A stretch of 64,000 bases of DNA from Phytophthora colocasiae. Its lineage: Eukaryota > Oomycota > Peronosporomycetes > Peronosporales > Peronosporaceae. The first letter of the stretch is position 1. Each line of letters opens with the position of its first letter. The position numbers and the translations under genes were made by a program. The notes under the pieces were generated by a model. The model was given only the letters and a program-made list of their open reading frames with translations, was not told the origin of the DNA and ran no database searches. This document shows, piece by piece, positions 19,647 through 64,000 of this stretch. The stretch covers positions 186,001 to 250,000 of the forward strand of contig JAGKQI010000059.1 of assembly GCA_018806915.1 (NCBI GenBank), read 5' to 3'.

Positions 19647-19648
19647 TC

Positions 19649-19663: not shown

Positions 19664-19697
19664 TCCATCCAACTCCTGAGTTGAAGACTGTTTCTCT

Positions 19698-37111: not shown

Positions 37112-37406
37112 CCCTCCCCCACCAAACCGTGGATACGCAGTATCTACAACTGCAGACATAACTGCCTTGTCAAGGCCTGTCACCGGCAACTTTCCGATAA
37201 AAGAACTCTCTCGACGAGAGTGCGCGTGCGCGCTGGCTCAACGAGCACATTCTCCCATTCGCCCCAGCGAGCCTACCGCTCCTCGGGTGTCCCGTGTTCT
37301 GACTTCACAGCCTCAGCGCCTCCGCGCTTCCCCGCCTGAGCCCTCGGCTCCTCTCACGCTCTCCGTCTCGGAGTACTTCGCGGCGTCTCGCCTTCGCTAC
37401 GGAGCG

Positions 37407-41351: not shown

Positions 41352-41352
41352 A

Positions 41353-41370
41353 TGGTGCGCGTGCCCGGAT
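41353..41370 (+). other. C1 primer-binding site
   Basis: TGGTGCGCGTGCCCGGAT, one base after the LTR; complement of a tRNA 3' end, as in C0 and D. Confidence 0.85.
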
Positions 41371-41469
41371 CTTCTGGTGACTTCGGACCGTGAGTCCCAA
41401 GAAGATGTCAAGATTAAGGAAGAACAAGGGGAAGAAGTGCCTACGAAAGTTGGATCGACGGAGGCACCG

Positions 41470-43677
41470 ATGAAAACAGAAAGATCCACAGATCAGCAGA
41501 GTTCTGGGAGGATCTCTACTGACAGGCACGAGGCAGACCTGGATCGCAATCCAGATCTTGAAGAAAAACCTCGAATTCCTCCCAAGGCCCCTTCGAGGGC
41601 CACCGCGGATCTCGATGAGAATCGAGATCCGCACACAAGCGATAAGGAATCAGCAAAGCTGAAACCTAATCTGCTCACCAAGTCCACTGTTGCCTCAAGA
41701 TCGACCAAGAAAAAGAAGATCAAGAGCACCCGGACGAAACTGAAAGCTCCAGACTCAGAGCCAGAAGATGTGATCAGCCCAGGATCGACGATTACCAAGG
41801 ACGCGATCGAGCAGGCCTATTACAGGAAGATGCTAAGCGAGACCTTGCTTAACGATCCCGTTCTTACGATCATACAAGTCCGCCAGATCGGTAACCTCAC
41901 CGGCCCAGTGTCGAAACCCCGGACTAGCTCGGACCGCCTGAACGCGGTGAAGATTCTACTTGATCTGCTCCAAGAGGCTGGTTTAGTGGCTGGAGAATTC
42001 GACCTGAACTCTCTATTTGATCTGGAACTGGAAGCGATTCAATCTGCGACCCATGACCTATTCAACTCTCTCAAAGTCTTGGTCGGCGAACGCCCACTGA
42101 CGCCCGATCTAGGTTATCAGACTGGATCGTCATGCTACGCGTCAGCGACTTCGGAACCAGATTCCGACAGCCCGAGAAGGTTGCAACGCATGTCGCTGGG
42201 CCCCTCCGGTGCCAAATTCCTGAAGTCGCGTATGAAGAAACAAGATACACGATCGGTGACCACGAAACTGGAGGCTAAGACACCTGATCAGCAAGAAAAT
42301 CGCCGGATCCGGACAGACCAGACCGCGCCGACGACTAATTCCACTGGATCGAGCAACAAGTTGGACGACTACTTTCAAATGGCGATGGATCGTTTCTTAA
42401 AAGAACGGAATCTCGCGACACCCCGATCGCCGATCAAAGGGGAATTGGATGTTGAGATGGAGTCCGTTACGGCCTCGGATCCGGATGCATGGGAATACGA
42501 TCCAGACGACATGGGCATACCAAGTTCCGGTGGACAGACGTCGAGCCGAGCAGCGATCGCATCCGCGGCGATCGGTCAAGGAGGATCGTCGATGATCCAG
42601 CGGGTCCGGATCTCAGCGATCTCGGATCTGAAAGATTTTGCGGGTAAAGATCTGGACGAAGATCGCGCTCGGGCCTGGATCAGTAAAGTCAAGTCAGCGT
42701 TCCAGCGCGATCAGGCTACGGAAGAAGAAAAATGCCTCACATTTGCAGATCTGATGGTGGGACCGGCAAAGAACTGGTACAGGCAGCTCAGTCGAACGAC
42801 GAAAACCAAGTGGGCAGATCTGTTGGACAGTTTCCAGACCCAGTATTGTGGGTTGGGTATGTCGGTCGCGTGGCAATACTATCACGCTCGCAAGCGATCG
42901 GAAGAAACTCCCCTTGACTATCTCTACCGGCTCAACGTGGCGGCTTTACGTGCTAGACTGAAGATCAAGGATGGGAGCCCTAAGGCCCGCCGGGAACATG
43001 TAGACCACTATATCGAGACATTGGGAGATCCGGAGTTAGCTGATCGGCTGACCCTACTCCGGCTGAATGACGTCGATGAACTTGAGGAGGTACTTCGTGC
43101 CCGGGAACGGGCGAAAAGCAGACAGCGTAAATCTGCGTTCGGATCGAAATACAGACAAAAGGCACCGGCCAGTGCCCCGGCGGCACCCACCCGAGCGGTG
43201 GTACGGGCGATCCAAACCCGAGATCCGAGCTCGGAATCAGAGGAAATATCCGGATCGGACGGATCCGATTCTGAAGGCGATCTCCGGAGGATATATCTTG
43301 CCGCGTCGGAAGACAAGCAGATCGGCACTGGGGGCGTTCCCCACCAACAGGATCAGTCGCGATCGCAGGTGAACGCGCAAGATCGAGGCCGGATCGCGGA
43401 TCGCAGGGGTACGTCAGACCACGATCGAGGTCGCTGTTCACACTGTGGATCGCGGAAGCATACGGATCTGGACTGCTGGAGACGTCTAACCTGTGAAAAG
43501 TGCGGGAAGAGGGGTCACCCAACGGATCGCTGTCTGTATACCTGCCGTGGTTGTGGGGAGATCCATGAAGCTGGAGAATGCCCCATGGAAGAATTCTACA
43601 ACCAGATCCGCAAGTGGTACGACCCGACCCGACATGCCGGATTGTTCCCCGAGAAGGTGGAAAAGATGTTAAACTAG
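41470..43677 (+). CDS. gag: C1 gag
   Basis: Capsid polyprotein, 735 residues from ATG 41470; the frame is open from the LTR, so the start is uncertain. A long charged N-terminal domain (Lys/Glu/Asp-rich, KSTRTKLKAPDSEPEDV), then a capsid-like region (WISKVKSAFQRDQ, NWYRQL, WADLLDSFQTQY, RLNVAALRARLKIKDG, LEEVLRARERAK), an acidic Ser-rich linker, and three zinc knuckles: CSHCGSRKHTDLDC, CEKCGKRGHPTDRC and CRGCGEIHEAGEC. Three knuckles are more than A or B gag carry. It ends KMLN then TAG, directly after the slippery site. Confidence 0.93.
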   Translation: MKTERSTDQQSSGRISTDRHEADLDRNPDLEEKPRIPPKAPSRATADLDENRDPHTSDKESAKLKPNLLTKSTVASRSTKKKKIKSTRTKLKAPDSEPEDVISPGSTITKDAIEQAYYRKMLSETLLNDPVLTIIQVRQIGNLTGPVSKPRTSSDRLNAVKILLDLLQEAGLVAGEFDLNSLFDLELEAIQSATHDLFNSLKVLVGERPLTPDLGYQTGSSCYASATSEPDSDSPRRLQRMSLGPSGAKFLKSRMKKQDTRSVTTKLEAKTPDQQENRRIRTDQTAPTTNSTGSSNKLDDYFQMAMDRFLKERNLATPRSPIKGELDVEMESVTASDPDAWEYDPDDMGIPSSGGQTSSRAAIASAAIGQGGSSMIQRVRISAISDLKDFAGKDLDEDRARAWISKVKSAFQRDQATEEEKCLTFADLMVGPAKNWYRQLSRTTKTKWADLLDSFQTQYCGLGMSVAWQYYHARKRSEETPLDYLYRLNVAALRARLKIKDGSPKARREHVDHYIETLGDPELADRLTLLRLNDVDELEEVLRARERAKSRQRKSAFGSKYRQKAPASAPAAPTRAVVRAIQTRDPSSESEEISGSDGSDSEGDLRRIYLAASEDKQIGTGGVPHQQDQSRSQVNAQDRGRIADRRGTSDHDRGRCSHCGSRKHTDLDCWRRLTCEKCGKRGHPTDRCLYTCRGCGEIHEAGECPMEEFYNQIRKWYDPTRHAGLFPEKVEKMLN

Positions 43678-43715
43678 GACGCTCGCCGGTTTGGAAACCG
43701 GTACGAGCCGAGCGT
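43668..43715 (+). promoter_or_regulatory. Predicted -1 frameshift signal, C1 gag-pol
   Basis: GTTAAAC (43668-43674) in the gag frame, immediately before the stop TAG; the same heptamer is used by equine arteritis virus. After a 4-nt spacer, stem ACGCTCG (43679-43685) pairs with CGAGCGT (43709-43715) around a second hairpin CCGGTT/AACCGG (43686-43701). Slipping back one base enters the pol frame at VKLGRSPVW. Confidence 0.8.
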
Positions 43716-46700
43716 TCTGAGTACTGCATCTATGCATATGTGAACAAGAAATCGAGAGATCAAGATAGGGAGAATTCGGATCTGCGCGGTAATACATGTA
43801 AGTTGCATTCGTATACTGCTAAGATCGCGAGTCTTCCCCGGATCGATGAGTTCTCTCGATCTGGTGCGGAAGTGGCTCTGGATCTCAAGGAAGGAGAGTC
43901 CAGGGGGTATTGGAAATACCACGCACCCGGAAAATGGTTCCGCCAAGCCAAGATCTCAGGCAAGATCAATCACGAAAGAGCGATCTTGCTCCTGGACACT
44001 GGCGCCGAGGTATCCATCTTGGATACCACCTTTGCTCGTAAGGTCGGGTGCCACTTTGACACTAGTCAGAGACAGGAGTGTGTTGGGATCGGTGATAATG
44101 TGTACACCACCGAGGGAAGAACGAGGATCAAGATCACGCTTGCGGGATACTTGGTCTACTTTTTCGATATTTGGATCGGGGATCTATCCGGGCAAGATGC
44201 GATCCTGGGTATGGATTTCATGATCCCGGCTGGGGTCCGGATGGATCTTGCGAAGGGATCGATGTGCTTACCTAATGAAGTGGGGATCCCACTTAGTGGT
44301 CGCAAGAGATTATACGGGGAGAAGGTAAGATCGGTAAAATTGGAGGAAGACCTACATATCCCAGTTGGGGGATCTGAAGAGATCGCATCGAGAGTGAAAT
44401 TATCGGCGACAGAGAAATTGTGGGTGACCAGAGGCGACCGGTGGGTACCTACCGTGGTAAATGGACCCGGCCGAACTCGGTACTTAGTGATCACGAATTT
44501 GAGCGAGAAGATTTTACGACTGGATCACAGATTACATGTCGGAATGGTACTTGATCAAGAAAAAGTTCCTCGATACCCCGGGTTTGTGTCGGTCGGATCC
44601 CGGCGTTACATGGAGTGGCAGAATCTAGCTCTAGAAGCGACTGTGGACGCAAGACCAGAACCTCAGGAAACCGTAGAGATCCCCTTACCGTCGGTCGAAC
44701 GGCCGACCTACGTTACGCCGCGATCCATACTCCGCCGAGGTGGAACGACCAAGACCGATCCTGATCCTGCACCAATATCGACATTGGAACCGCGATCACC
44801 AACCGATACAGCCGAAGTCAAGGTCGCATTCATCGATCCCCAACCGGATCCCATGGATACCCCACCGATTACGATCAGTTCCGACAAGACCCCGAGTGGC
44901 GAAGCTGGGGGCGGGGAGACTGAGACGAATGAGAGCTTGCCAGATCAGGCCCCAGATCGGACAGATCGGACATGCGAAGAAGAGATCGAGGTAAAAACAG
45001 AAAAACCAGATTTTCAAATCGAGATCAAACATGAATCCGACGCCGATGCCGTCCCCATGGTTAAAGACACCCCGATCTTGACAGCCAAGGACGATAGGCT
45101 GCGTGATCAATCAACGGATGAACCGGATCCGACATCTCCTGAAGGGATCGAGAACGCCGATCAGACCCACTTACACGAAAGTGGCGATTTTTCGGCCGAA
45201 GATCTAGCCGATAATCTCGCAGTAGTACCAGAGATCCAGATCTCCACCACCGAAGAAGTCAGGATTGAAGATCTGCAAGTAGGGAATCCGGGATCGGCGA
45301 CCCCGGAGGAGATCGAGAAACTTCGACAGATTATTTGGAAGAAGCGACATCTCCTGATCGGAAAGGGAAACGCACTTCCTCCAGCGGCCAAGGGTGTTAT
45401 ATGCGATATCGACGTGGGTGATGCAAAGCCGATCGCACAACGAGTCCGAAAGGTGGCGCCACAGTTTCGCGAGAAAGTATCAGATCTTATCAAAGGACTC
45501 CTAGCTGCCAAGATCATTCGGCCATCGACATCGCCATGGGCATCTCCGATCGTGGTGATCATCAAGAAGAACGGTGTAGACATCCGACTATGTATCGATT
45601 ATCGGTTGGTGAACGGTCTCACAAGGCTGATGATCTACCCAATGCCCCTGATCAGTGACCTGCTAGAAGATCTTGACAAGGTTCTTTGGTATTGCTCATT
45701 AGACATGGCGAGTGGATTCTGGGTCGTATCAATGACCGATCGAGCTCGCGCGATCTCGGCTTTCATCACTCCATTTGGCCTTTTCGAGTGGAATCGCATG
45801 CCGTTCGGGCTGAAGAACGCCCCTCAGATCTATCAACGCCTTGTGGACAATGCCCTATATGGATTTTTGAAGATCTCCCAGTCCGGAGACGTGGAAGGCG
45901 CTGCGGATGTGTTCGAGTCAGGAATCCCGGAAGGTCCCGGTCGCCCGTCGGTGCTAGGACGGAGATCATACATCGATGATATCTTGATCACGGCTGGATC
46001 ATGGGATCAAATGTGCGATCGGGTGGAAGACCTATTGGAGGCCTGTGATAAGTGGAATCTCTCGATCAGTGTGGCAAAGAGCTTCTGGGGCATGGATAAG
46101 GTGGAATATCTCGGACACAAAGTGTCGATCGATGGATTGGAAGCAAACCCGAAAGACCTGAAGTCTCTGACGGATCTACCATTCCCTGGATCACTCCGAT
46201 CTATGCAATCGTTCCTTGGAAGTTTGAATTACTATAGTCGGTTCATCGAGGATTATGCGATCTATGCATCGGTCCTATATGAACTACGTGAGGTAGAGTT
46301 CGCAGAACTGAAGAAGCGACCAGAACTACGAAAGATCATGGATAGCGTGGACCTGATCACTCAAGATCCCGTCGCGCTTAAGTCGGATCGGGATAGATCA
46401 CTAGATATCCCGACTCAGGGACGCGATAGTACACCAGATCCTGACTTGGGGGCGATGTCTTCACCCTGTTCGAGCGAGATCGGAGCCAACCTGGGCCTAA
46501 AGACTGGTGACGAGAGGTGGGGTAGGGCATACAGGGCGTTTACAGCCTTGAAGACCAAGATCGCGTCGACCCCGATCCTTCGTCACTTCGACACGACGAA
46601 GTTACCCGTGGTGATCGTGTACGCTAGTGACTGGGCGATTTCCGCCGCACTAATGCAGGAACACGACCAGATCTACCACCCGGTCGCGTTTGCCAGCCGA

Positions 46701-49262
46701 ACCTTGAAGACCAACGAGCTGAATTATAATGTTGCCGAAAAGGAGGTGTTGGCTCTACTTCGGATCTTGGATCTACACTACACCTTGCTGGTGGGACGTC
46801 GGATCAAGGTCCTAACCCGACACTCCACGCTTGCCTGGCTGTTCAAGTCTGCCGGCCTCCAAGGACGTCTGGGACAATGGTCTGCTCTCCTGTCCCCGTG
46901 GACACTCGAGATCACGAAGTGTACGAAAGGAGAGGATGAAATACTGGGGGCGATCGCAGCTAACATAACGCCCAGATCGGAGATCGACGAAGCTCTGATC
47001 GCGATCGCGCCACGAAAGGAGCCAAAACGGCGGATCCAGATGCCGATCCCCACCGTAGACCCAGATGAGGAGTTGTGGGTTATAAGTTTCGACGGATCGG
47101 CACGCGTGAAACGAGGAGGAGGCGCTTTCAGCGCGATCGTGTGGAGTTTACCAGAGTGGAAAGTGATCAAGGCTAGATCGGATTATGCTGAAAGCCTTAC
47201 TGTCAATGAAGCGGAATACCGTGTGCTAGGTCTTGGCATGATCGCACAGTTAGAACGCCGCCGTTTGGTCGTTTGTGGCGATTCGAATCTGGTGATCCGA
47301 CAAGTCCGGGGCGAGATCGACTGCAAGGCGCCAGGATTGACGTTACTGAAACAGAAGGTGCTAGATCACTTGCGGAATTGGGGAGATCATGAGCTGGTCC
47401 ATGTGAAGAGAGACTGGAATGGGAGCGCAGATAGCTTGGCGAGTGCCGCACTGCAGCGAGGAAGCGGGATCGAGGTCCACGATGAGGCAGATCGGTGCGA
47501 TCTGATCACCCTAAATCGGCTCGATGAGGTGTTGGTCCCTCGAGTTGAAGATCGAACTGCACGAGTGTCGGCAGTAGCCACGCGTGCAGCCCGAGCGCGA
47601 CCTGGCGTAGCTGTCCTGCGAGAGGAACTGATCCGGGAGATGCGGATTGATCGGATCAGGCGAGCCCAGGACGAGGAGGTCTGGATCGCCGGACTAAAGA
47701 GGTACCTGGCTGGGCAGATCGCGGATCTTACTCGAGCCGAATCTGTATCCTACGCCAAGATCGCCTCCGAGTACGAGGTAGACGAACAAGATCTGCTGTT
47801 TTACTGCCCACCAGGGCCGAGATCAAGTGGTGATCGCGACCGCCTGATGAGACTCGTAATTCCAGAAACACTACAGCAGGATGTCCTCCACCACTACCAT
47901 ACGACTCTGGAAGGGGGACATCAGGGGATCGGACGTACTTATCAGCGGATCCGAGATCATTTCCACTGGAGGGGATTATATCGGAGCGTGCAGCGATACG
48001 TAGGCGAGTGTGTAGACTGTGAGACCGGAAAGGGGAGACCCACGATCCGGGGCGAGTCACCTGGGAATCTGCAAGCGACATACCCATTCCAGATCATAGC
48101 GATGGATCACATACCCTCCCTACCCAGATCTAACAAGGGCAACACCGAACTACTGATCTGGGTCGATCTGTTCACGGGATATGTGATCGCGAAGGCCAGT
48201 TCCTCCCGATCGACCCAGACCGTCGCAGAATCTTATGAAGAATGCGTGTTCCGCAGATTTGGTGCTAGCGAGATGATCAGGCACGATCGAGAACCGGGTT
48301 TCATGTCCGACTTCTTCAGATCGTTCAATAAGATCCTGGGGCAGCGACAACGGGCGACGATGGCCTACCAGCCACAAGCCAATAGGACCGCAGAACGGAT
48401 GGTGCAAACGGCGACTAGGGCGATCAAGATGTATGTTCAAGATCTCGATCAGAAGGACTGGGATGAGTATGCGGAGAGACTGACGTTCGCTATTAACACG
48501 GCTCACGATCGGGTTCGGGGAGATACCCCTCACTATTTGGTACACGGATGGGATCCGAGATCGACGTTGGAAGCAACGATTCCGATTGGGTCGACCAGAC
48601 GCCACGATTGCGATCCAAGACGATGGAGATATCGGGTTCAGAGATACTACCAGCAGTCGCGAGAACAGGTCAACGCTAGACTACGAGAGGCGATTGCAGA
48701 TCGAGCCGATCGGCACAATGAGGATGTCGATCCGCATCAGATCGAAGCTGGATCACGAGTTTGGCTATACCTAGATCGTGTGAAGGAAGGGTATGCACGT
48801 AAACTCGCTCACCTTTGGCACGGCCCGTTCCGTGTTGCAGAGAAGCTCAACGAATTCACGATCAAGCTGGAGATCGCGGGATCTGATTACCATATCTTCC
48901 CAGTGGTCCATGTTTCTAAGCTAAAGCTGGTGCGGAGTTTCCCGGATCGACCGCGGATCGAGTTGACAGTAGATGAAGCAGATCGGCTCGATTTCGATGA
49001 GATCCTCCTCCCGGAGGACAGTTGGGTCCCAGATCTGGATGCCGATGAGTACGAGGTCGAACGGATCTCGGACATGCGAAGTGGGAAACGAACTCGCTAC
49101 GGCCGGATCTATCGTGAATTCCTGGTACACTGGGTCGGTTATGACGAACCGACTTGGGTTGATGAAGCTGGTCTTAACTGTGGAGCCATACTGAGTGCGT
49201 TCCTACGTGATCATGCTAACCGAAATCGGTTTGGCGTGATGCAGTCGCACGAAGAGGTGTAG
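43671..49262 (+). CDS. pol: C1 pol with dual RNase H and chromodomain
   Basis: Uninterrupted pol of about 1,860 residues after the frameshift. Protease LLLDTGAEVSILD (about 43988). RT: LCIDYRLVNG, SLDMASGFW, MPFGLKNAPQIYQ and YIDD (about 45969), with some 35 extra residues (VEGAADVFESG...) just before YIDD. First RNase H: YASDWAISAAL and AEKEVLALL, but the usual TDH reads LTRHSTLAW, losing an Asp. Second RNase H (about 47085): FDGSARVKRGGG, NEAEYRVLGLG, CGDSNLVIRQV and NGSADSLA, complete. Integrase: zinc region HHYHTTLEGGHQG ... CVDC, then AMDHIPS, RHDREPG, NRTAERM. GPY/F module (HGPFRVAEKL) and chromodomain (YEVERISDMR ... FLVHWVGYDEPTWV). The first RNase H probably serves as a connection domain, as in retroviruses. 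Confidence 0.95.
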   Translation, partial: KLGRSPVWKPVRAERSEYCIYAYVNKKSRDQDRENSDLRGNTCKLHSYTAKIASLPRIDEFSRSGAEVALDLKEGESRGYWKYHAPGKWFRQAKISGKINHERAILLLDTGAEVSILDTTFARKVGCHFDTSQRQECVGIGDNVYTTEGRTRIKITLAGYLVYFFDIWIGDLSGQDAILGMDFMIPAGVRMDLAKGSMCLPNEVGIPLSGRKRLYGEKVRSVKLEEDLHIPVGGSEEIASRVKLSATEKLWVTRGDRWVPTVVNGPGRTRYLVITNLSEKILRLDHRLHVGMVLDQEKVPRYPGFVSVGSRRYMEWQNLALEATVDARPEPQETVEIPLPSVERPTYVTPRSILRRGGTTKTDPDPAPISTLEPRSPTDTAEVKVAFIDPQPDPMDTPPITISSDKTPSGEAGGGETETNESLPDQAPDRTDRTCEEEIEVKTEKPDFQIEIKHESDADAVPMVKDTPILTAKDDRLRDQSTDEPDPTSPEGIENADQTHLHESGDFSAEDLADNLAVVPEIQISTTEEVRIEDLQVGNPGSATPEEIEKLRQIIWKKRHLLIGKGNALPPAAKGVICDIDVGDAKPIAQRVRKVAPQFREKVSDLIKGLLAAKIIRPSTSPWASPIVVIIKKNGVDIRLCIDYRLVNGLTRLMIYPMPLISDLLEDLDKVLWYCSLDMASGFWVVSMTDRARAISAFITPFGLFEWNRMPFGLKNAPQIYQRLVDNALYGFLKISQSGDVEGAADVFESGIPEGPGRPSVLGRRSYIDDILITAGSWDQMCDRVEDLLEACDKWNLSISVAKSFWGMDKVEYLGHKVSIDGLEANPKDLKSLTDLPFPGSLRSMQSFLGSLNYYSRFIEDYAIYASVLYELREVEFAELKKRPELRKIMDSVDLITQDPVALKSDRDRSLDIPTQGRDSTPDPDLGAMSSPCSSEIGANLGLKTGDERWGRAYRAFTALKTKIASTPILRHFDTTKLPVVIVYASDWAISAALMQEHDQIYHPVAFASRTLKTNELNYNVAEKEVLALLRILDLHYTLLVGRRIKVLTRHSTLAWLFKSAGLQGRLGQWSALLSPWTLEITKCTKGEDEILGAIAANITPRSEIDEALIAIAPRKEPKRRIQMPIPTVDPDEELWVISFDGSARVKRGGGAFSAIVWSLPEWKVIKARSDYAESLTVNEAEYRVLGLGMIAQLERRRLVVCGDSNLVIRQVRGEIDCKAPGLTLLKQKVLDHLRNWGDHELVHVKRDWNGSADSLASAALQRGSGIEVHDEADRCDLITLNRLDEVLVPRVEDRTARVSAVATRAARARPGVAVLREELIREMRIDRIRRAQDEEVWIAGLKRYLAGQIADLTRAESVSYAKIASEYEVDEQDLLFYCPPGPRSSGDRDRLMRLVIPETLQQDVLHHYHTTLEGGHQGIGRTYQRIRDHFHWRGLYRSVQRYVGECVDCETGKGRPTIRGESPGNLQATYPFQIIAMDHIPSLPRSNKGNTELLIWVDLFTGYVIAKASSSRSTQTVAESYEECVFRRFGASEMIRHDREPGFMSDFFRSFNKILGQRQRATMAYQPQANRTAERMVQTATRAIKMYVQDLDQKDWDEYAERLTFAINTAHDRVRGDTPHYLVHGWDPRSTLEATIPIGSTRRHDCDPRRWRYRVQRYYQQSREQVNARLREAIADRADRHNEDVDPHQIEAGSRVWLYLDRVKEGYARKLAHLWHGPFRVAEKLNEFTIKLEIAGSDYHIFPVVHVSKLKLVRSFPDRPRIELTVDEADRLDFDEILLPEDSWVPDLDADEYEVERISDMRSGKRTRYGRIYREFLVHWVGYDEPTWVDEAGLNCGAILSAFLRDHANRNRFGVMQSHEEV

Positions 49263-49637: not shown

Positions 49638-52226
49638 TCAGGGAGTCCCAGGAGATGTAGGGGGAGCAGGCGGGTTAAACTTGTTTTCGAGCCGTGGGAT
49701 CTGCCGAGACGGGTGATCTGCCGGCCGATCGCGGTAATGGTTGCGCCAAAGGTCCTCCTGATCGCATTCTGCCAACGCAGAGATCAGATCGGTGGGCTCC
49801 GGTCGGTTCAGAGTCGGCTGGGCCAGGTTAGCCATTCGGGAGGCCGATCCGGGGTACCAGTATACCCGATCACGGATAGTGGGGAAGTGCAGGAAGTAGG
49901 GATCGAGCAGAAGATCGATGTCCGCCCACATCGCCCGCATCATGGGCAGGAATCGTCCCAACAGCAGCCGCCAACGTTCTCCGGTACGGCTACGCCGTTG
50001 CTGACGCTCGAGGTAATACCGACGGAGATCAGGATCAGCCTCATACATCGCCTTCGTGATCTCGAGATAATGGGTCGATTCCCAGTAGGCCTGCAGGTGA
50101 TCTGACTCGAAGGCGGCGTAGGCATCCGCGATCTGCCCCAGCAAAGTCCCAGCACGACGATGTAGACCGAGATCGAAGGTGAGGGGGGCCGGTCGGTTGC
50201 GGAGCACCTCCCAAGGTCGGGTAGCAAGTAGGGCCTGCACGTTGGGCCCAGTGATCAGGCTAACCAACCAACCGACCCCAGCTCGGGAAGGGCGATTAGC
50301 CGGTGATCTCGCTGGGTAAAGGAATCCGGGAGGTAGCTGCAGCCTCTTGGACAATGTGGAGAGGATCATACCGACGATCGCCAAAGTTCCGACGAACATC
50401 GGATCCCACGGGAAGACATCACCAGCCGCAAACTGCCGGACGTTCGCATACCCGGGAATAGACGAGCTGATCGCGAACAGAGGAGGGCGTAGCTGGGGGC
50501 GCGGCGAGCCGCCGGGAGAGCCGCCACCCGGAGATCCCCCACCGGGAGGGCTCCCGCCAGCTGGACTACCCCTCGAGGACCCCTGAGGAGAAGTGATCGG
50601 AGTCTGTGGGGAACTGCCGCCCGGAGGTGTCGGCTGCGCCGGAGGCGTCGAAGGAGCCGAACCCCCTTGATCACCGGATGCTGGAGGAGGATTTCCATGC
50701 CGGCGGTGCCACGACAGCGATCGGAGTATCGTAGCCCGAAGAGCGTCGTCGGATCCAGCGCCAGAATCCTCCGCGTCATCGTCATGCTCCGGATCGGGTT
50801 TACGTTTGGACCGATCCGAGCCACCCTTCTTCGGGGAAGGTGCTTCCACGGTCACTTGCGAGATGGCCTGGGTGCGATCTGCTTCCTCCGCATCTGGCCC
50901 AGTCGGGATCGCGGGTTCAGGACCCAGATCGAAGGGGTCTGGGCCTTCCTCGTGCTTTTCTTCGAGCTCGGTCGCCTGGGCCTGGCCACCGGGTTGGTCT
51001 CCAGCGGGAACATCAGGTGGGGCCGCGTCGTGATCGGTCGGGGGAGGCTCCGTCCGCGAGGTCTTGTGCGGGGGCGATGTAGCAGGAGATGGGGGCGGAC
51101 TGAGAGCACGTTTGACCCCCCGTTCATCTTGAGCAGCGCGGAGCCGAGACACCATTTCGGTCAGGACGTTGGTAGTCGCCGATATGTTATCTTCCGCTTG
51201 ATCGTAGTTCTCCTGCAGTGCTTGAAGACTCGCTTCTAACTCCTGCACTTCGGCATGGGTACCGATCAGATCATCCTCTACGACAAACAGAATATGAGTG
51301 ATCATGGTCAGGTGGAAGGGGATCTAGACTATGTACGCACCTAGACGAGTGGATCGCTGTCGCTCGGTGCTGAGATCCGCCTGTGCTCTGTCGCGATCTG
51401 CGAACGCTTGGTCTCGTTCCACGAGTAGGCGATCCCGCTCCGAAGTGACTCGGTTCAGTTCGGAGTTAGCGTGGACGAGTTGATCGGTGGCTAGGTCACG
51501 TTCACCAGCGATACTGGTCAGGGAAGCGATCGCTCGGGCGGAGTCCGCCAAGGCTCGATCTCGCTCAGCCAGGGCCAATCGGGTGGGAGCCCCTGTCGAA
51601 GGCGTGGGGCTGGAATCCAGTTGGAGATGTGCAAGATCAGCCGAGATCCGGTTGTAGCTGGCCTTGGCAGTGACGGAGTCTTGCTTCGCCTCAGCCAGAT
51701 CGCAAGCATGGATCCGGGCTTCCGCCTGAAGATCCTGGATCTCGTTGGTGGCTTGTTCCATCTCTTCAGTCAAACGATCCCGGTCCTCTGTAGCTCGCTC
51801 TAGGTCTGCCTGGGCAGAGTTGAGACGCCGCGCGAACTCGTCGCGTTCCGATCGGAGCTGGTGAACCTGCATACGCAATCCATCGAGATCAGAGGCTTCC
51901 TCCGCGAGATCAGCGATCTCGCGCTCCAGACGCGCAATCTCGCCCTGCTGGTCTGCCCGGAACCGCTCCATAGCGTCGACATGCGCCCGAAGTTCCATGG
52001 CTTCACGACTTAGTTGATCACGTTCGCGCACCAGGCGATCCCGCCCTGGACTGCCCGGCATCGGCCCAGCCTCATCGGATGAGAGCGGACGTGCGTGGTC
52101 TGGAGCCGGACCCGACGAACGTCGCGAGATGTCGGAATGGGGAGATGGCGGACCGTCGGGGGATCTTGGGGAATCGGGAGGTGTAGGCAAATAATCGCTC
52201 CCGGGATCACTTCCTTGCTGGCTCAT
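49638..52226 (-). CDS. C1 antisense gene, two exons, coiled-coil protein
   Basis: Exon 1 52226-51341, intron 51340-51278, exon 2 51277-49638; 2,526 nt, 841 residues. ATG 52226 (MSQQGSDPGSDYLPTPPDSP) lies 127 bp inside the 3' LTR; the frame is also open into the LTR, with another ATG at 52703. Residues about 1-60 are Pro/Ser-rich; about 65-350 form a long coiled coil (LVRERDQLSREAMELR, EIARLEREIADLAEE, VQELEASLQALQENY) that continues without a break across the exon junction. A Pro/Gly-rich linker with PPGGGSPGGGSPGGSP follows, then a C-terminal region of about 280 residues with a hydrophobic stretch (MFVGTLAIVGMILSTL) and aromatic-rich helices. No known family recognised. Confidence 0.75.
51278..51340 (-). 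other. Predicted 63-nt intron in the C1 antisense gene
   Basis: Donor GTGCGT after CTAG, branch-like CTGAC, pyrimidine-rich TATTCTGTTTGTCG and acceptor TAG. It contains the in-frame stop that would end exon 1. Removing it joins the frames as Arg-Leu-Glu-Asp-Asp and keeps the coiled coil in register. Confidence 0.75.
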
Positions 52227-52336
52227 GGAGACTGGAAGGGATCCGTTGATGGTGGTCGAAGTGTTGTCGGGGTGACTTGTGCCTTGGGCTGAAGATTGGA
52301 GAATGAGACCTGAAGTGGACCGAGACGGACCAACTT

Positions 52337-52352
52337 GCAGGCTGGGGGCGGA
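52337..52352 (+). other. C1 polypurine tract
   Basis: GCAGGCTGGGGGCGGA ends directly at the 3' LTR start TGTGGTG. Plus-strand primer by position and composition. Confidence 0.65.
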
Positions 52353-53860
52353 TGTGGTGAAGCGCGAATAAGAAATCCGAGAAAAGGCAACGTCAGGCCC
52401 AGAGAGAGTCGGATCAAGCGACAGGGGCCTCTGGCGAAGCAAGATGTCAGTTGATGACCCCAGATTGCGCGAACGATGGCTGACGAATGGATCCAGATCG
52501 ATGTTCGTCTGGATCTCGCCAGCGATGAATGGATGGCGTCTTGGTCGAGTGAGACTAAGTGATTGGAGAACCCGCCGTGCGGTCCCGCGTGGCGGCTCAG
52601 GGTCGGAGGAGAAAAGGGCGCCTTGCCTGAGATCGCATGAGACGGAGATCAAGACAGCAGAGGGTCGGGACCGGTGCGATCTATGGTGGGCCGGTGACAA
52701 CATAACCGTGAGATGCTGCCGAGGGGACCTGGTGGCAGTGTTAGTCGCATGGGGAGTGGTGATCAAGTCCGGGAAGCTCAAGACCTGGAATGTCGACGAC
52801 ACAGGCACGCGAGATCAAGTATGAAGGCTGCTGATCGAGATCATTGTTCAAGGCGGTGGACCAAGATCGATGACCGAGATGGTTGATCGAGATCGGCTGA
52901 TCGCCAGATCGGCAGATCGAGATCGCGATCAGGGGTTAGGTGAGATCAAGATCGAAGATCGGAGGGGCAGCTGTGTAGCCGGATGTCAGGTAATCGTAGG
53001 ATAGCAGATGAGGATGGGGCTGGTAGACATAGGAATAACCATAAACAGAATCGAATTTGCTCTCTAGTGCGCAAGTGGACTACTTCAGGGACCAAGACAA
53101 GGGAAGAGGATAGCACATTGGCCTCCCCTTAGTGTTCCTACACTTCGCACACCTAGCTACAGCTAAGACCGGATCCCCGATTTGGCCGGCTTACCTTACG
53201 CTAGTGTGAGGATCTCTCGGTATCTCAACAACCCCCAAGAATCGAATTTGCTCTGGACATCACAAGTGCCTTCATCCAAGACTGGAACCGGGAATTACAT
53301 TGGCCCATCAGCATCAAGAAGGTAAGGAGAAGAGATCTAGCATAGAGGTTAATTCTGGATAATACATTGGCCAGTTTTACCCTATCTAGTGATCTATCCT
53401 TTACGTGCGAACTACGGATCGGAAGGAATTGGCTGCTTGGCCTGACGATCTCGTCGACTCTCAACCCATCAAGACACCCGCTACAGGAAGCGGCAAGCAT
53501 CGTAAAGGAAGGGATCAGATCCCCAACATTGGACCTTTGGAAGACCTGGATCGAAGATCAGGCGACCGGATCAAGGCTCGAGTATTCGCCTGTGACCCGG
53601 ATCAACCCCTTCGAGGTAGAGTGAAGTATTCCCACGCTATCTCAAACCCCTGCGTCACCCAAGACATTCTTCTCGTCCCAAGACATCTTCAGAAGTTACC
53701 TGGAAGAGCGTAACCCGCCTACCGACGGGTACACAAGGTGAACACTACACGCAACACGATCACGGATCATCGGGGGACTCCCTCCGTTAGTCGGTGTCTG
53801 GGCGCAAGTGGCGATCGCGATCGGCCTCAACCGGATTTTGGTCAGATCCGCTCCACCACA
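52353..53860 (+). repeat. 3' LTR of C1
   Basis: 1,508 bp. Nearly identical to the 5' LTR except for an 8-bp repeat-number change and a cluster of about 20 substitutions confined to 53404-53600. Its minus strand would have to supply the promoter of the antisense gene. Confidence 0.93.
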
Positions 53861-56745
53861 TAGTACAGCAGACCGCCTTCCAGGCTATAGCGTTGGAGTC
53901 TCGCCTTTAGGAGTCGTGACAGAGTCACCTTTGAGTCCTTAAACTCATCGCTCCCTAGAGCTTGAAGCAGCGCGACACAAGAGTCATCCTGAGCGTACGC
54001 TGCTCGAACCATGTCCGTCACGGACGACGTCACCGAAGTGACATGAGATAACTCATAGTCCGGACGACGTGATAGCGCGTCAGCGAGGACGTTCTGCCTG
54101 CCAGGCTTGTACTTCACCTCGAAGTTATACTCCGCAAAGAAGGAGAGCCATCGGGCCATCCTCTGCGAGAGGTGAGGCGACTGCGTCGCTGTGCGTAGTG
54201 ACGCATGATCCGTGTAGATCACAAACGGCTTGGAGCCGAGCAGGTGAACCCTGAATTTGACGAGGGCGTACTTCATCGCAAGTAGCTCCTTGTCATGAAC
54301 TGGATAGTTCTTCTCAGCAGCCTTGAGCTGCCGAGACTCAAACGCAATGACGCGTTCGCGCCCGTCGGCGTCCGCTTGTAGCAAAGTACTGCCGATGGCA
54401 AAGTCCGAGGCGTCACAGACGACGATGAACGGACGATCGGGGTCTGGCAACGCCAGTATCGGTGCCTGAAGCAGGCTATCCTTGATACGAGTGAACGCAC
54501 TCTCCTGCTCAGCACGCCATACCCATTCGGCATCCTTCTTAAGGAGATCCGACAGTGGCCGAGCCAATTCAGCGTAGTTCTCGCTGTACTTGTGCAAGTA
54601 GTTGGCCAAGCCCAGCCACTTCCGCAAGTCCTTCTGGTTCAAGGGAACCGGCCAGTCCACAATGGCCTTGACCTTTGCTGGATCAGCACGAAGGCCATGC
54701 TTCCCAATGAAGCACCCTAGGAAGGGGATTTCTTCCGCGCCAAAGACGCACTTGTCTGCGTTGGCGTACAATTTGTTCGTGCGCATGCACTCGAGCACAG
54801 CTCTCACGTGTTCCACGTGCACCTCAACGTCAGTCTTGCCGTGTTCGGCCTGACTGTGGACGAACACGTCGTCAAAGTACGTTTGTGCGAATGCCCGTAG
54901 GGGCCTGAACAGCTGCGTCACTAGACGATTGAACGTTGCGGGCGCGTTCGAGAGCCCTTGGGGCATGACGAGCCACTCCCAGAGCATACCGCTCGGGGTG
55001 CTCACCGCTGTAAGCGGAATATCACTGGCTCGCATGAGCAGCTGATAGTAGCCATCGACTAAGTCGAGCGCACTGTACATGGTGCAACCCACCATGTTGT
55101 TCTGAAGAACATCCTTCCTAGGAATCGGCGTCTGCGCCGGAATCGTGGCAGCGTTGAGCTTGTTAAAAGCGTGAACGATACGCCACTTGCCATTCGGCTT
55201 TCTGACACAGAACGTAGGCGCGGAGTGCGGAGACTTGCTCTCGCGCACGAGACCCGCCGCGTGCTTCGCACGGAAGAAGGCGTCAATGACGTCGCGTTGC
55301 TCTTTAGGAAGAGGCCACTGTCGGGTCACGCAGTATTTAGTTCCGGGACCTAAGTCTATCTCGTGACGAACGCCTCGGTCAGGAGGCAGGCCACTCGGTG
55401 GTTCCTTCGAGACAACGTCTCCATATTCCTTCAGCAAGGAGTAGAAGGGATCCGAGGGATTCTTGAGGATCTCCGATCCACTCCTGGCGCTCAACGCCTT
55501 CTTGACCTCGGCCAAGACGGACTCGTCAACGAGGGACGATTAGTTTAACTCCTCTTCAGGTCGAACCATGACCACCTCGGCGAGTTCGCCAGCCTTCAAG
55601 GCATCGCCAAAGTCGGCGAACGACATCTCCCCTAGCTCAAGGAGCTTGTCAACACTCGGCAGTTCGTCCAGCAGGACGCTGCCTTCGGCACTGCCGTCCA
55701 CTCCATCAACCAGAGTGTATAGCTGCCCACAGCCCTCCTGTGCGTCGGCACTCGACGCCACGGATGACTCAGACGCAGAGCGTCTCGCCCATAGGGCCTT
55801 ACGACGTCGTCGTCTAGCCGACGAACGTCCACTCGACGGAGTACGTGCCGTCGCACAAGTTTCGGCCTCACCAGGCCCAGTGTCGGAGACACTCAGCGAC
55901 CTACTCGGTCGATTACCGATGTCGCTCAGCGGAGTACGTGCCGCTGCACAATCAATAACCGTAGCTGGTCCAATGTCAGAGACATTCAGCGATCGACTTG
56001 GTCCACGACCAGTATCGCTCGGCGGAGTACGTGCCGCCCCACAGGGATTACGTGGGCTCTGCCCACACGTTGACTCACTGTCAACCAGCGCTACGCGCTC
56101 AACAGGACTGCGGTCCTCACACTCGGTGCTGTCCATCAGCTCGGACACACCGACCTCCAGCATCATAGCCGACTCGGCTCGATGCTCGCGCCAATAGCGC
56201 TTCTGCTTCCTAGCAGAGGTGGGTTCATGACTCGCCAAAGCTCCACTAGGAGAGAAGTGCGTAGCACCTAAGGTCTTCGGCCTCCAATCGATCCAGGGCT
56301 CGTGGCGCTCCAGCCACGCCATACCAAGGATGAGGTCGTACCTCGAATCCAGGTCCAAGACCAAGCAGCGTTCCACGCTGTCGAAGTCCAGGAACCTCAG
56401 CCGCAGGTCCATGGGGACCTTGGCTGCCGTGACACGGACGCCCGTCGCTAGACGGACAGTGACGGTGTCACCTCTTCGCGCTCGAAGCGCCTCAGCATAT
56501 TGCTGGCTACCCTCAACGGTGGAGCGTCTGACATAGTTGTCAGACGCTCCCGAATCGATCAACACGATCCACGGCTTCTCAAAGCCCTTCACGTCCACAT
56601 GGACGACCAGCAAGCCCTGCCTGCCCACTCGTTCCGTGTTCAAGAGCGCGGAGCTCTTCGGGGCTGAGCCCCAGTGCCTCTCACGCACTGTAGAACTCAG
56701 TTCTTCCCCAGTAGACCGCCCCGCGTCTACTGGGAGCCGTCGTTT
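53861..56745 (-). pseudogene. pol: A4 pol, N-terminal part: protease, RT, RNase H
   Basis: Right to left: after the frameshift signal, protease (IDSGASDNYVRR, LGMAWLERHEPWIDW) and linker to TAA at 55540-55542 (TCG in A1, ...EEELN/SS), then RT (KEQRDVIDAFF, YFDD near 54868) and RNase H (CDASDFAIGSTLL, TDHASLR) in one frame to GGLLYY, where C1 is inserted. The rest of pol lies left of C1. Apart from that stop this part is clean. Confidence 0.93.
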
Positions 56746-59529: not shown

Positions 59530-59613
59530 CTTGGTAGCACTTGTAGTCAATCCTACGCCTACGCGGGTAGATTGATTACCTGAATCCTCTGTGGCCAGAA
59601 GTAGTTGGCCATC

Positions 59614-60618
59614 ATGGATCGAAGTGAGTTTCCTCACTTGACCGACTCTCAGTTTGAGTCGGTCCGGAAGATGGCGGGCATCTTTGGGATGGATGCCTTC
59701 CGAAGCTTGGCGGCGGCGACGCCGGCCGAGCAGGTCGAACGCGTGGCGGCGTTCGACATGTACGAACGTGGGCTCATTGAGCACGTTCGAGGAACCTTTG
59801 AGGCTCCTGTGGTTGAACCGAGGCCGGTTCAGCCCAAGCCTTTAAGACTCAAGGTTCTTCCCTATGAAGGGAAAGAAGGTGAAAACCTTCACTTCTGGAT
59901 CCGAGAAGTTGAGCTCGCCATGGAGGCGGCTCTCATCTCGGTGGAGCGACTTCGGGTCGCTTTCGCGCTGTCTAACCTCGGGGGTCGAGCGAAGACATGG
60001 GCGTACACGCGCGAAGCGACGTCGCCTGGATGTTTTACATCCTGGGCCCAGCTGTGCGAACAGCTTCGGGCCGCATTCCTCCCGGCGAACTATGAGTATC
60101 GCCAGCGGTCACGCTTCCTAGCCTGCAAGCAAGGGAAACGTGACCTGCACGAGTACATCCAAGAGATGCGTGTTCTCGCGGCATCTCTGGTAGGAAACCC
60201 CCTACCTGAACACATCCAAGTAACTGTGTTCATGGACGGCTTAAGAGTAAGCCCGGCCCGCACGCAACTGTTCCGCGTGCAGGTCAACACGATGGAGGAG
60301 GCGATTCAAGTCGCGCTCCAGGAGGAGTACAGCCATACACAGGCTCAGACTCCTGCCTCTGCGTGGCAAGGCCACAGCGGGCCGACGACGGTGTCGGCCA
60401 GTGCTCCTGGGAATGGAGCAGGCTCGGGACCAGCCCCTATGGACTTGGGGCTCGCCGAGCAGAAACGCATCCGCTGTTTCGAGTGCGGCCGTTTCGGACA
60501 CTTCGCACGTGTCTGCCCCTCTGGGGGTCAATGGAAGAGGTCTTCCAAGCCTCAGGGCTCTAAGGGCCGCTGGAAGAAGCCGGCGCCCAAGAGTCAGGGG
60601 AACTCCGGGGACCAGTAG
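59614..60618 (+). CDS. gag: B gag
   Basis: 334 residues from ATG 59614 (MDRSEFPHLTDSQFESVRKM). The capsid region parallels A gag (VRGTFEAP, AALISVERLRVAFALSNLGG, SRFLACKQGKRDLHEYIQEM, VTVFMDGLRVSPARTQLF). A single zinc knuckle CFECGRFGHFARVC is followed by a basic tail. The frame is intact. TAG (60616-60618) falls inside the conserved hairpin, as in A. Confidence 0.95.
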   Translation: MDRSEFPHLTDSQFESVRKMAGIFGMDAFRSLAAATPAEQVERVAAFDMYERGLIEHVRGTFEAPVVEPRPVQPKPLRLKVLPYEGKEGENLHFWIREVELAMEAALISVERLRVAFALSNLGGRAKTWAYTREATSPGCFTSWAQLCEQLRAAFLPANYEYRQRSRFLACKQGKRDLHEYIQEMRVLAASLVGNPLPEHIQVTVFMDGLRVSPARTQLFRVQVNTMEEAIQVALQEEYSHTQAQTPASAWQGHSGPTTVSASAPGNGAGSGPAPMDLGLAEQKRIRCFECGRFGHFARVCPSGGQWKRSSKPQGSKGRWKKPAPKSQGNSGDQ

Positions 60619-60638
60619 GGGCGGGGCGCCCTAATGGG
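60597..60638 (+). promoter_or_regulatory. Predicted -1 frameshift signal, B gag-pol
   Basis: GGGGAAC (60597-60603; CAG GGG AAC in frame) takes the place of the A heptamer GGGAAAC, at the same 7-nt distance from a stem ACCAGTAGGG/CCCTAATGGG with the same loop GCGGGGCG (60611-60638). Two stem pairs differ from A by compensatory changes; one internal pair and the basal pair are mismatched. Pol is open in the -1 frame. Confidence 0.65.
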
Positions 60639-63600
60639 GAAACACTAAGTCCCCATGCGGGTGGTGCGGGAGGCACACGCAGTGGAGACTTAGCCCCAGA
60701 GAGTCTTGGGACTCTCAAAGCGGAGAAGGGCAGCGGTGGGCTGCTGGTGGTACACGCGAGTGTACGGGGGTTTAACAACCCCTTTAGAGTCTTGATAGAC
60801 TCTGGGGCGAGCAAGAACTTTGCTCGCCGACAAACTGTCGCGAGGAATCGCGGCAAGTTTGAGGACGCTCTACGTGAGAGCGAGGGAAGTGGGCTAGTCG
60901 CCGTACGACTAGCCGATGGTACGGTGGTGGAAGTACCAAAGGTCCAGGTGGACCTGGCTGTGAAGTTTGAGGACTTCGACAGCGTGGAGTCGTTCATTGT
61001 CCTCGAGATGGACAAGTACGACTTGATCCTAGGGATGCCGTGGCTTGAGAAGCACGAGCCCTGGATCGATTGGCGCGGCAAAGCCATTGGGGCTAGCCGG
61101 CCTGCAGTCTCTGACAGAGCTTTGGTGAGTCATGTTCCCACCTCTGTCAGGACTAAGGGCGTTCGCTGGAACCGCCAGGACGCGGCAGCGTCCGAGGAGT
61201 ATTTGGGGGCTGGTGTAGTCGGTGGTACATCGCCCCACACGAGAAGTGATCGTGGGCCATGGATGGCCGGGGCAACGGGCGGAGGCCCTTGACTACGTGT
61301 GGGTCTGCAACGATAGCAGGGCCCCACGCACGAAGTCGCAGCGACGTACAGGCTGCGACTGTGGTAGTGCCCGAGAGCACTAACCAGGTGGGTAACTTAG
61401 GTCCACAAGCGGATCAAAGAGTTCCGCAGGAAGCCAAGATGGCTCGCGATGCCGAAGTAGTGGCATCGCCAGGCGTACGAGAAGTAGTTCGACGCCAGGT
61501 TGCTCAGACCATAACTGATGCGGGTAACAGAGTTCCGCATGGAGCCACGAGGGCTCGTGATGCCATCGTAGTGGAATCACCGGGCGTGGGTAAGCTAACC
61601 CCACGCCATGGTCGTAAGCCGGGGTTGGTAGAATACCATCCCGAAGAAGTCCACGAGGACTTGGGACAGGAGCTAAAGGCTCCTAGGTCACAGCCGGTCG
61701 AAGAATGCTATCACATCTTCGACGGCGTGACCGGGCATCGCGTGAAGGCGGGGGCCATCGAGTTGGCACCCCTGCCTGAGGTATCAGAGCTATTGAACCT
61801 CGAGGAAGTCGCGATGGAGGACTTCCTGGTCGAGTTGAAGGCCGGGGAGATATCGGAGATGGTTCTCCTTAGGCCGGAGCCCACTCCAGAGGAGTTGAAC
61901 TCCTCCTCAGTGATGGACGAAGACGTCCTGGAGGAGTTCCGGAAGCAGCGTGCGTCGCGCACGGGCTCCGAGATTCTGAAGAATCCGAAGGATCCGTTGT
62001 ATCCTTTAGTGAAGGAGTTTGAGGACGTGGTGTCTAAGGACCCACCCTCAAAGCTCCCACCAGACCGAGGGATCAGGCACGAGATTGATCTCGTGCCAGG
62101 CACAAAGTATTGTGTCACGCGTCAATGGCCCCTGCCCCGAGGGCAGAGCGACGTCATTGACGCGTTCTTCGCCGCTAAGGCGAAAGCGGGAATGGTGCGG
62201 GAATCGAAGTCCCCGCACTCGACGCCAACCGTCTGCGTTCGCAAGCCGAACGGGAAGTGGCGTCTGGTTCATGCTTACAACAAGCTGAACAGCGCGACTG
62301 TGCCAGCACAGACGCCGATCCCTCGCAAGGATGTGTTGTTGAACAACATGGCCGGCTGCACGCTGTATAGCGCGCTGGATCTGGTGGATGGATATTACCA
62401 GATCCTGATGCGGGAGTGTGATATCCCGCTCACGGCCGTGAGCACGCCGAGCGGTATGCTCTGGGAGTGGCTGGTAATGCCACAAGGTCTATCCAACGCA
62501 CCAGCGACCTTCAATCGCTTGGTCACACAGTTGTTTTGACCTTTGCGTGCGTTCACGCAGACGTACTTTGACGATATATTCGTCCATAGCCGTGCCGAGG
62601 GAGGCAAGACGGCTATAGAGGTGCATCGAGAGCACCTCCGTCGAGTGTTTGAGGTCATGAGAGCTAACAAGCTCTATGCCAACATCGACAAGTGCGTCTT
62701 CGCAGCTGAGGAGATTAAGGTCCTCGGCTGCTTCGTCAGCAGCGTCGGGGTCCGAGCGGATCCTGACAAGGTCAAAGCCATTGCGGCATGGCCTGTTCCT
62801 CGGTCACAGAAGGACCTGAGGAAGTGGTTGGGCTTAGCCAACTACTTGCACAAGTACAGTGCTGGCTATGCGGGACTCGCAAAGCCTTTGTTGGACCTTC
62901 TGAAGAAGGAGGCCGAGTGGTGCTGGGAGCGCCAGCACCAGGATGCTTTTGACAGCATCAAGGCGAGCTTGCAATGCGCGCCCGTCCTGGCGTTGCCGGA
63001 CGATGCCAAGTCGTTTAGCGTTGTCTGTGACGCTTCCGACTATGCAATTGGCTGTGCGCTATTGCAACAGGACGATGAGGGACGAGATAGGGTGATCTCG
63101 TTCCAGTCCAGGCAGCTGAAGGCTGCCGAACGGAATTATCCCGTTCACGACAAGGAACTCTTGTCGATGAAGTATGCCCTTGTCAAGTTCAGGGTGCATC
63201 TTCTGGGCTCAAGGCCCTTTGTGGTCTATACGGACTACGCGTCCTTGCGGACAGCCATCCATACGCCGCACTTATCGCAGCGGATGGCGCGTTGGCTGTC
63301 ATTCTTCGCGGAGTATAACTTCCGCGTTGAATACAAGCCTGGCAAGCTCAACACGCTTGCCGACGCTTTGTCGCGCAGGCCCGACTATGAGTTCGCTCAT
63401 ATTAGTCGGGCCACGACGGATCTTTACGATCGAATACGCTTGGCGTATCGGGACGATGACATCCTCGCCCCTATTGTGCGGTATTTGTCCGCTGGCACAG
63501 ATGCCAAGGTCGAATGGCTTACGCCTCGACAGCGGGCACGGCTCCACCGCTATGAGTGGGCCGATGGCCTGCTCCACTATCGGGTGGAGCCCGGGGATCC

Positions 63601-64000
63601 TCCGCGGGTCGTTGTTCCGAACGACGAGGATCTGAAGTATGATATACTTCACGAGGCACACGATGTGCCTTCGAGTGGCCACTTGGGCCGAGAGAAGACC
63701 TATCATGGGGTATCTCTGATGTTTTGGTGGGCCCACATGTACAAGTGGGTGGCCAAGTACATCAAGACATGTGAAACATGTCAGCGCGTGAAGCCTGCGG
63801 GGCACGCGTCGGCTCCGCTGCAGAGCCTGCCAGTCCCACTGGACTGCTGGAAGTCGATGAGTCTCGACTTTGTCTTCGGCCTTCCGGCCGATGACCAGAA
63901 GAACACCGGCATTGTGGTGTTTGTATGCCGGTTGAGCAAGATGGTGCATCTTGCTCCGGTCTCTGAGACCATTACCGGGGAACAAACTGCGAAGTTGTTC
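60600..64000 (+). pseudogene. pol: B pol (frameshift and nonsense), 3' end outside
   Basis: Protease LIDSGASKNFARR and LGMPWLEKHEPWIDW in the -1 frame to TGA at 61290-61292; homology moves to another frame near 61260-61290. RT follows: LPPDRGIRHEIDLVPG, LDLVDGYYQILMRECDIPLT, then TGA at 62537-62539 where A has Arg (LF-R-PLRAF), then YFDD (about 62564-62575). RNase H has CDASDYAIGCALL, RNYPVHDKELL and TDYASLR (Tyr for His). Integrase begins GHLGREKTYHGVS ... CETCQRVKP, SLDFVFG; the window ends before the remaining catalytic residues. After 62540 the frame is open. Confidence 0.92.

Follow-up and report, generated by a model that had tools for sequence, protein, structure and literature searches.

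Known Antisense Genes of LTR Retrotransposons

Several retrotransposons with long terminal repeats (LTRs) carry a gene on the antisense strand between pol and the 3' LTR. In plants, such antisense open reading frames (aORFs), of the type called aORF-3R, are found in maize Grande (gene23), rice RIRE2 and Silene Retand (PMC7264820, PMC11963269). The function of the plant aORFs is unknown in print; Grande gene23 is driven by a promoter of its own, and its product is nuclear (PMC7264820). An antisense gene, brtn, occupies the same place in the Boty elements of Botrytis cinerea (Zhao 2011, cited in PMC8365987 and PMC7264820). Oomycetes harbour Chronos, a Ty3/Gypsy lineage with two RNase H domains, the first degenerate and the second archaeal-type, and with a chromodomain after the integrase (Ustyantsev et al. 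2017, PMC5348765). Tat elements also have a second, archaeal-type RNase H (PMC5348765). Here we describe a Chronos-like Gypsy element of about 14 kb in a 64-kb window of Phytophthora colocasiae DNA. The window, to which all positions refer unless another contig is named, is the whole stretch that was analysed and lies on contig C52 of the 92.5-Mb genome (105 contigs) that was searched. Between pol and the 3' LTR, the element holds what is almost certainly a selected protein gene in antisense orientation. Taken as a whole, the locus is probably best explained as an accessory antisense gene of a Chronos-type Ty3/Gypsy element, tail-to-tail with pol; the amino-acid sequence of the gene has been kept by purifying selection during element replication.

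Structure of the Antisense Gene

The gene sits on the minus strand between the stop codon of pol (49260-49262) and the 3' LTR (52353-53860). The original prediction described two adjacent minus-strand open reading frames (ORFs) separated by a stop, and these were recovered at 49638-51323 and 51324-52814, in the same frame, with an in-frame TAG at 51324-51326. The 63-nt interval proposed as an intron (51340-51278) is also present as described, with a GTGCGT donor, a CTGAC branch-like site and a TAG acceptor (TCGTAG). When it is removed, the frame from ATG 52226 to the TGA at 49640-49638 gives the 841 residues that had been claimed, without a stop. Exon 1 (51341-52226, 886 nt) would encode a disordered N terminus and most of a coiled coil. 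Exon 2 (49638-51277) would encode the end of the coiled coil, a Pro/Gly linker with a stretch resembling a nuclear localisation signal (NLS) and a basic C-terminal region, and ends in the TGA, which is kept in all 41 rows of an alignment of 40 fetched copies and the window copy.

Two of the arguments offered for splicing are true as observations and carry less weight than was given to them. Removal of the interval does join the frames exactly, but this is no proof of splicing, as both ORFs share one frame from the outset and 63 nt make 21 codons. The heptads do run on across the junction, but they would do so equally under readthrough of the stop, since 63 nt also make three heptads. The feature had moreover been extended to 52808. 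The open frame above ATG 52226 enters the LTR, and its length differs between copies, ranging from 305 to 496 aa among the rows that span all of exon 1. The unconserved stretch 52227-52808 therefore lies outside the gene.

Copy Number and Purifying Selection

Genome searches returned at least 146 match rows for exon 1 and at least 97 for exon 2, fragments included; 25 of the latter were full length without a stop. Individual decayed copies of the gene do hold stops. Variants were counted on 35 of the 41 rows, with L030, L043 and L045-L048 left out for their many small gaps, and were called shared when present in two or more copies. Shared variants are taken to have arisen mostly during element replication, and singletons mostly after insertion.

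By codon position, the shared variants were distributed 43/39/114 in exon 1 and 67/48/198 in exon 2, whereas the 5' untranslated region (UTR), intron and 3' UTR together gave 47/51/44, with no excess at the third position. Singletons were flatter, at 41/46/64 in exon 1 and 70/96/112 in exon 2, although those of exon 2 are still uneven (p 0.008), which counts against the preferred reading. The original prediction held that the frame was more than a chance ORF, named a ratio of nonsynonymous to synonymous substitutions (dN/dS) below 1 as a check, and counted random stops in related elements as a refutation. All three of these sequence-based points came out in its favour. In the antisense frame, stops arise from only 2 of the 534 shared variants; the counts for the remaining five frames are 13, 26, 12, 21 and 21 (Fisher 8.5e-6, pooled).

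The dN/dS values were measured against the window copy, with pieces of pol fetched for 15 of the 40 copies, all from this genome. Among these, the nine that are more diverged (L029, L031, L033, L036, L037, L038, L041, L042 and L044) gave ratios of 0.14-0.26 for exon 1, 0.18-0.24 for exon 2 and 0.08-0.17 for pol; in six younger copies, the corresponding ranges were 0.11-0.34, 0.20-0.34 and 0.09-0.14. Within exon 2, the C-terminal part had the lower ratio in eight of the nine diverged copies. Together with the codon-position and stop tests, these ranges indicate purifying selection on the antisense protein, of somewhat lesser strength than on pol. Like an aORF-3R, the locus has an antisense ORF between pol and the 3' LTR, many copies, and a conservation near that of pol, which rather than gag was the gene compared.

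The gap-rich copies are of a peculiar kind. L043, L045, L046, L047 and L048 are 86-96% identical in aligned bases, yet each shows 20-91 gap openings within about 3 kb, which could reflect a local error of assembly or some unusual form of decay.

Probable Splicing of the 63-nt Interval

The splice signals are well kept across the 41 rows, with GT in 40, AG in 41 and CTGAY in 39. Shared variation in the donor is limited to G/A at its third base and T/C at its sixth, and in the branch site to the final C/T. Median intron length is 78 nt in P. sojae and 74 nt in P. ramorum, with branch motifs of the CTGAC type (PMC2483917); these published statistics, rather than the introns of the present host, served as the yardstick. 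The interval therefore combines GT-AG ends, a branch site, a Phytophthora-like length and retention across diverged copies, the marks of a spliceosomal intron, and it is probably spliced out of the antisense transcript.

Readthrough of the stop is a live rival, because the intron is a multiple of three in length and holds a single in-frame TAG. Here the 63 nt would be translated and the conserved TAG sometimes read through, giving a 300-aa coiled-coil protein and a rarer 862-residue fusion with no splicing at all. The frame is indeed the same on both sides, and the length is a multiple of three in 33 of the 41 rows, including the diverged L029 with its 12-nt insertion. The eight other rows have 7-68 gap openings each and therefore do not settle the matter. 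The lone TAG is the sixth intron codon in 40 of 41 rows. Against readthrough stands the variation within the interval. In the readthrough phase, its 19 shared-variable sites (34 of the 41 rows) fall 6/6/7 by codon position, unlike the exons, where variable first and second positions are equally many in just 17 of 798 overlapping windows and 2 of 39 non-overlapping ones. Donor, branch and acceptor vary only as splice sites tolerate, and the added peptide would, as judged by eye, bring Pro, together with several beta-branched residues in a row, into the coiled coil.

Several points weigh against splicing. The missing codon bias of the intron is marginal (Fisher p 0.053); 35 of the 798 overlapping exon windows are equally unbiased; and the last 63 nt of exon 1 before the donor are also nearly unbiased (9/6/7). 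The length in multiples of three and the fixed place of the TAG are what readthrough predicts as well. A processed copy spanning the exon junction was sought in the genome at up to 3 mismatches, and none was found. On balance, readthrough is unlikely, and splicing is preferred. Retention of the intron would end translation after 300 aa and leave a short coiled-coil form, and regulated splicing is therefore possible. An intron in this orientation could persist in a retrotransposon, as the RNA that is reverse-transcribed runs the opposite way and would be unspliced at these sites.

A Candidate Promoter

The core promoter of oomycetes combines an initiator (INR) and a flanking promoter region (FPR) in a 16-mer. 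The consensus sequences are YCAYTYY for the INR, of which TCATTCT is the commonest form, and MWTTTNC for the FPR; the distance from the transcription start site (TSS) to the start codon is 32-144 nt in the best set (PMC3599244). A scan of the 64 kb with the 16-mer at up to 2 mismatches gave four matches against 0.47 expected, a number reached by 1 of 100 shuffles, and all four lie 67-167 nt upstream of the starts of antisense ORFs. The match that concerns the present gene (52293-52308, minus strand, 2 mismatches, with the INR TCATTCT at 52306-52300) had been spotted by eye ahead of the scan; the other three had not. It is located 67-82 nt upstream of ATG 52226 and 44 nt inside the LTR border, in the internal region. 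Among the 40 rows that hold this region, the INR is intact in 37 and all 16 bases are identical in 30. The 5' UTR would be 78 nt long, within the published range.

Some observations weigh against this promoter. The other three matches are one motif, 148-167 nt above the antisense ORF starts of another Gypsy family (family 2, see below), so that the four matches amount to two independent sites. The family-2 motif moreover lies 148-163 nt above the ATG, farther than the published distances from TSS to start codon, and a frameshift is present in one of the family's three copies. It is nevertheless likely that the antisense gene is transcribed from its own internal promoter, and not from the LTR. 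The placement of the antisense promoter in the 3' LTR, as proposed in the original prediction, is thus less likely than the match just inside the internal region. Transcription would start at this oomycete-type core promoter, in the gap that separates the ORF from the 3' LTR, and removal of the 63 nt would yield the mRNA for 841 aa.

The Predicted Protein

Residues 1-60 of the predicted protein are rich in Pro and Ser. Residues 61-345 have 3% Pro+Gly and show a 3.5-residue periodicity that was equalled by 1 of 2000 shuffles, in line with the coiled coil that had been claimed from the sequence. Pro+Gly make up 33% of residues 346-560, within which an NLS-like stretch (KKGGSDRSKRK-like) spans 445-455, and residues 561-841 are basic, with a pI of 9.4. 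Searches of Pfam and NCBIfam gave only generic coiled-coil matches under the cut-offs (for Pfam, among the best 25 of 40 matches for exon 1 and the one match for exon 2); exon 1 weakly matches SMC profiles, far under the NCBIfam cut-offs. A search of the PDB returned a single chance-level match (E 0.69), and a search of IMG/VR returned no relative.

From these features, a working model can be proposed. The protein would oligomerise through the coiled coil (residues ~61-345), enter the nucleus through the KKGGSDRSKRK-like signal, and bind nucleic acid or pol/integrase through its basic C-terminal region. By analogy with maize Grande gene23, and loosely with HBZ of human T-cell leukaemia virus type 1 (HTLV-1), it may serve the element's own cycle in the nucleus, as an accessory or regulatory factor, a suggestion that we put forward tentatively and at slightly less than even weight. 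Some results weigh against such a picture. Residues 211-305 taken alone have no significant periodicity (377 of 2000 shuffles), and an AlphaFold model of the last 275 residues has a pLDDT of 38, with no usable fold. The NLS and the nucleic-acid binding are guesses from composition.

Other Explanations of the Locus

After readthrough, the best of the alternatives is that the antisense RNA itself is the functional product, controlling the sense transcript through double-stranded or small RNAs, with the protein secondary. The 3' end of the genomic RNA would have its complement in such a transcript, LTR elements of P. infestans yield small RNAs of both strands (PMC3522703), and RNA and protein roles can coexist (PMC7264820). 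However, a role of this kind leaves the codon-position selection, the avoidance of stops and a dN/dS of about 0.2 unexplained. The tail-to-tail layout could also hold the antisense mRNA clear of the gag-pol coding region, which would be more in keeping with a protein gene than with an RNA that only silences. We regard a primarily RNA-based function as improbable.

Still less probable, to the point of being hardly credible, are two separate proteins, namely exon 1 alone (300 aa, to the intron TAG) and exon 2 from a start of its own. The window copy does have a Met codon in the 63 nt downstream of the TAG, but this codon is replaced in L016, L029, L031, L033, L036, L037, L038, L041, L042 and L044. 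In the window copy, the next Met comes at codon 41, where the second 63-nt window of exon 2 closes, and the first two such windows are already strongly biased towards position 3 (3/2/10 and 5/3/9).

A chance open frame in GC-rich DNA, or the shadow of a sense gene, was rejected as next to impossible on the stop counts and dN/dS: the mirror sense frame, which shares third codon positions with the antisense frame, also has a dN/dS of 0.22-0.31, yet takes 21 stop-creating shared variants against 2, while the other four frames of exon 2 have ratios of 0.96-2.22 (six copies) and the longest plus-strand frame in the region is 248 aa.

The Host Element

The preferred reading, an antisense accessory gene, places it in an element with the following layout. 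The 5' LTR (39836-41351, plus strand) has TG...CA ends (TGTGGTG/CACCACA), and the 3' LTR lies at 52353-53860 (plus strand). The two are 98.1% identical over 1516 columns, with 21 substitutions in 1508 aligned bases. A target duplication, TAGT, is present at 39832-39835 and 53861-53864, and a purine-rich stretch resembling a polypurine tract, noted by eye, ends at 52352, directly before the 3' LTR. The element is nested in a family-2 Gypsy element, with borders at 39835/39836 and 53860/53861.

The gag-holding open frame (41233-43677, plus strand, 814 aa) has a weak Retrotrans_gag match (E 0.012, under the curated cut-off). The pol open frame (43569-49262, plus strand) contains Pfam matches for protease, reverse transcriptase, a degenerate Gypsy RNase H, a second, archaeal-type RNase H, integrase and a chromodomain. 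The first RNase H matches PF17917 and PF17919 at pol residues 1013-1109 and 989-1081, and by eye its usual aspartates are missing. The second (47088-47450, plus strand; PF13456 RVT_3, E 4.5e-8, residues 1174-1294) shows, again by eye, a D-E-D-R-D pattern. At the C terminus of pol, after the integrase, the chromodomain (49050-49202, plus strand; PF00385, E 5.6e-5, residues 1828-1878) scores 23.4 bits, slightly below the curated cut-off of 25.1, and is positioned as expected. Because a dual RNase H and a chromodomain are the stated marks of Chronos, the element fits this oomycete lineage of Ty3/Gypsy by domain content.

Antisense Frames in Other Gypsy Families and Nearby Features

A second Gypsy family in the window also has an antisense ORF. 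Its element at about 19235-27102 has LTRs that match at 99.5% (19264-19646 with 26720-27102), and its pol contains a single RNase H and a chromodomain; the antisense genes are therefore not tied to the second RNase H. The ORF (24768-26408, minus strand, 547 aa) has its INR+FPR match at 26556-26571. In the part outside the overlap with pol, shared variants among 16 sequences are distributed 39/24/107 and none creates a stop; in the pol-overlapping part, the distribution is 13/18/33. Read singly, 7 of the 16 rows carry at least one stop. The distribution of shared variants indicates that the family-2 antisense ORF is under purifying selection. Further copies are found in the window at 17763-19238 and 37407-39041, both on the plus strand. 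Family-2 sequence also forms an inverted repeat at 34049-39136, with 1.4-kb arms that are 95% complementary and 2268 nt apart.

A third family is represented by an element with gag at 59605 (window 59605-64000), the pol of which runs into L077 (1-2314). Its antisense ORF (L077:2314-902), with at least 96 match rows, overlaps, as judged by eye, the chromodomain end of pol. A stretch of it looks coiled-coil-like by eye, and in copies elsewhere the ORF reaches further upstream. Codon-position bias was absent from a set of five close sequences (singletons 40/38/37, shared 3/2/1), and four further copies that were fetched had no INR+FPR match. Pairwise BLASTP found no similarity between family 1 (the Chronos-like element) exon 2 and family 2, between families 3 and 2, or between family 1 exon 2 and family 3.

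Elsewhere in the genome, TIM and GAPDH domains were seen in two open frames of 635 aa each, separated by 0.5 kb on the same strand (C32:1234941-1236620), which we take to be consistent with the TPI-GAPDH fusion, a hallmark of stramenopiles. This pair and the INR+FPR-like promoters were taken as possible pointers to an oomycete host of the Peronosporales or Pythiales.

Comparison with Known Systems

The domain order of Chronos is matched closely, with a dual RNase H of which the first is degenerate and the second archaeal-type, and a chromodomain after the integrase. The difference lies in the antisense gene: the published figure legend covers the domains of ORF1 and ORF2, and the word 'antisense' is absent from PMC5348765. 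In the titles and abstract openings that were searched, a scope with subscription papers and Repbase outside it, no antisense accessory gene of an oomycete was found.

The likeness to HTLV-1 HBZ is one of working only. HBZ is antisense, has spliced and unspliced forms, contains a zipper-type coiled coil and is a nuclear regulator; it differs in its 3' LTR promoter and its bZIP domain (PMC10186651). Unlike in HBZ, the promoter of the present gene looks internal, and bZIP is not among the Pfam matches listed for exon 1 (best 25 of 40). PvRetro13 of common bean has an antisense ORF2 with an SMC domain (PMC7264820), and exon 1 is weakly SMC-like here, a likeness by profile match alone, as coiled coils match SMC generically. 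Boty shares the place of the gene and differs in its fungal host.

The plant aORF-3R genes come closest in their place between pol and the 3' LTR, orientation, presence in most copies and lack of clear similarity to other proteins. Grande, RIRE2 and Retand belong to the Tat lineage. Transposase_28 (PF04195) gave no match in the genome, in a search in which 14 control profiles also gave none, and is not among the Pfam matches listed (one for exon 2, the best 25 of 40 for exon 1). The present host differs in being a stramenopile, and the present gene in its predicted coding intron; the word 'intron' is absent from the Retand paper (PMC11963269) and the aORF review (PMC7264820).

What antisense accessory genes do for LTR elements has not been settled. 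To this set, the present case adds a host group far from plants and fungi, a clear signal of selection measured against that of pol, and candidates for a promoter and an intron. It can be argued, with about equal weight for and against, that Gypsy elements of oomycetes have on repeated occasions gained unrelated antisense genes by the 3' LTR (two selected ones and a third candidate here), with coiled-coil stretches and in some cases an INR+FPR promoter. If unrelated antisense genes did arise repeatedly in one host, the antisense slot at the 3' LTR would answer a recurrent need, and its role could be tested by comparison. On the same evenly poised argument, Chronos would have converged on the plant Tat elements in an antisense gene as well as in the second RNase H, and its gene would be the first with a selected coding intron, spared from loss via reverse transcription.

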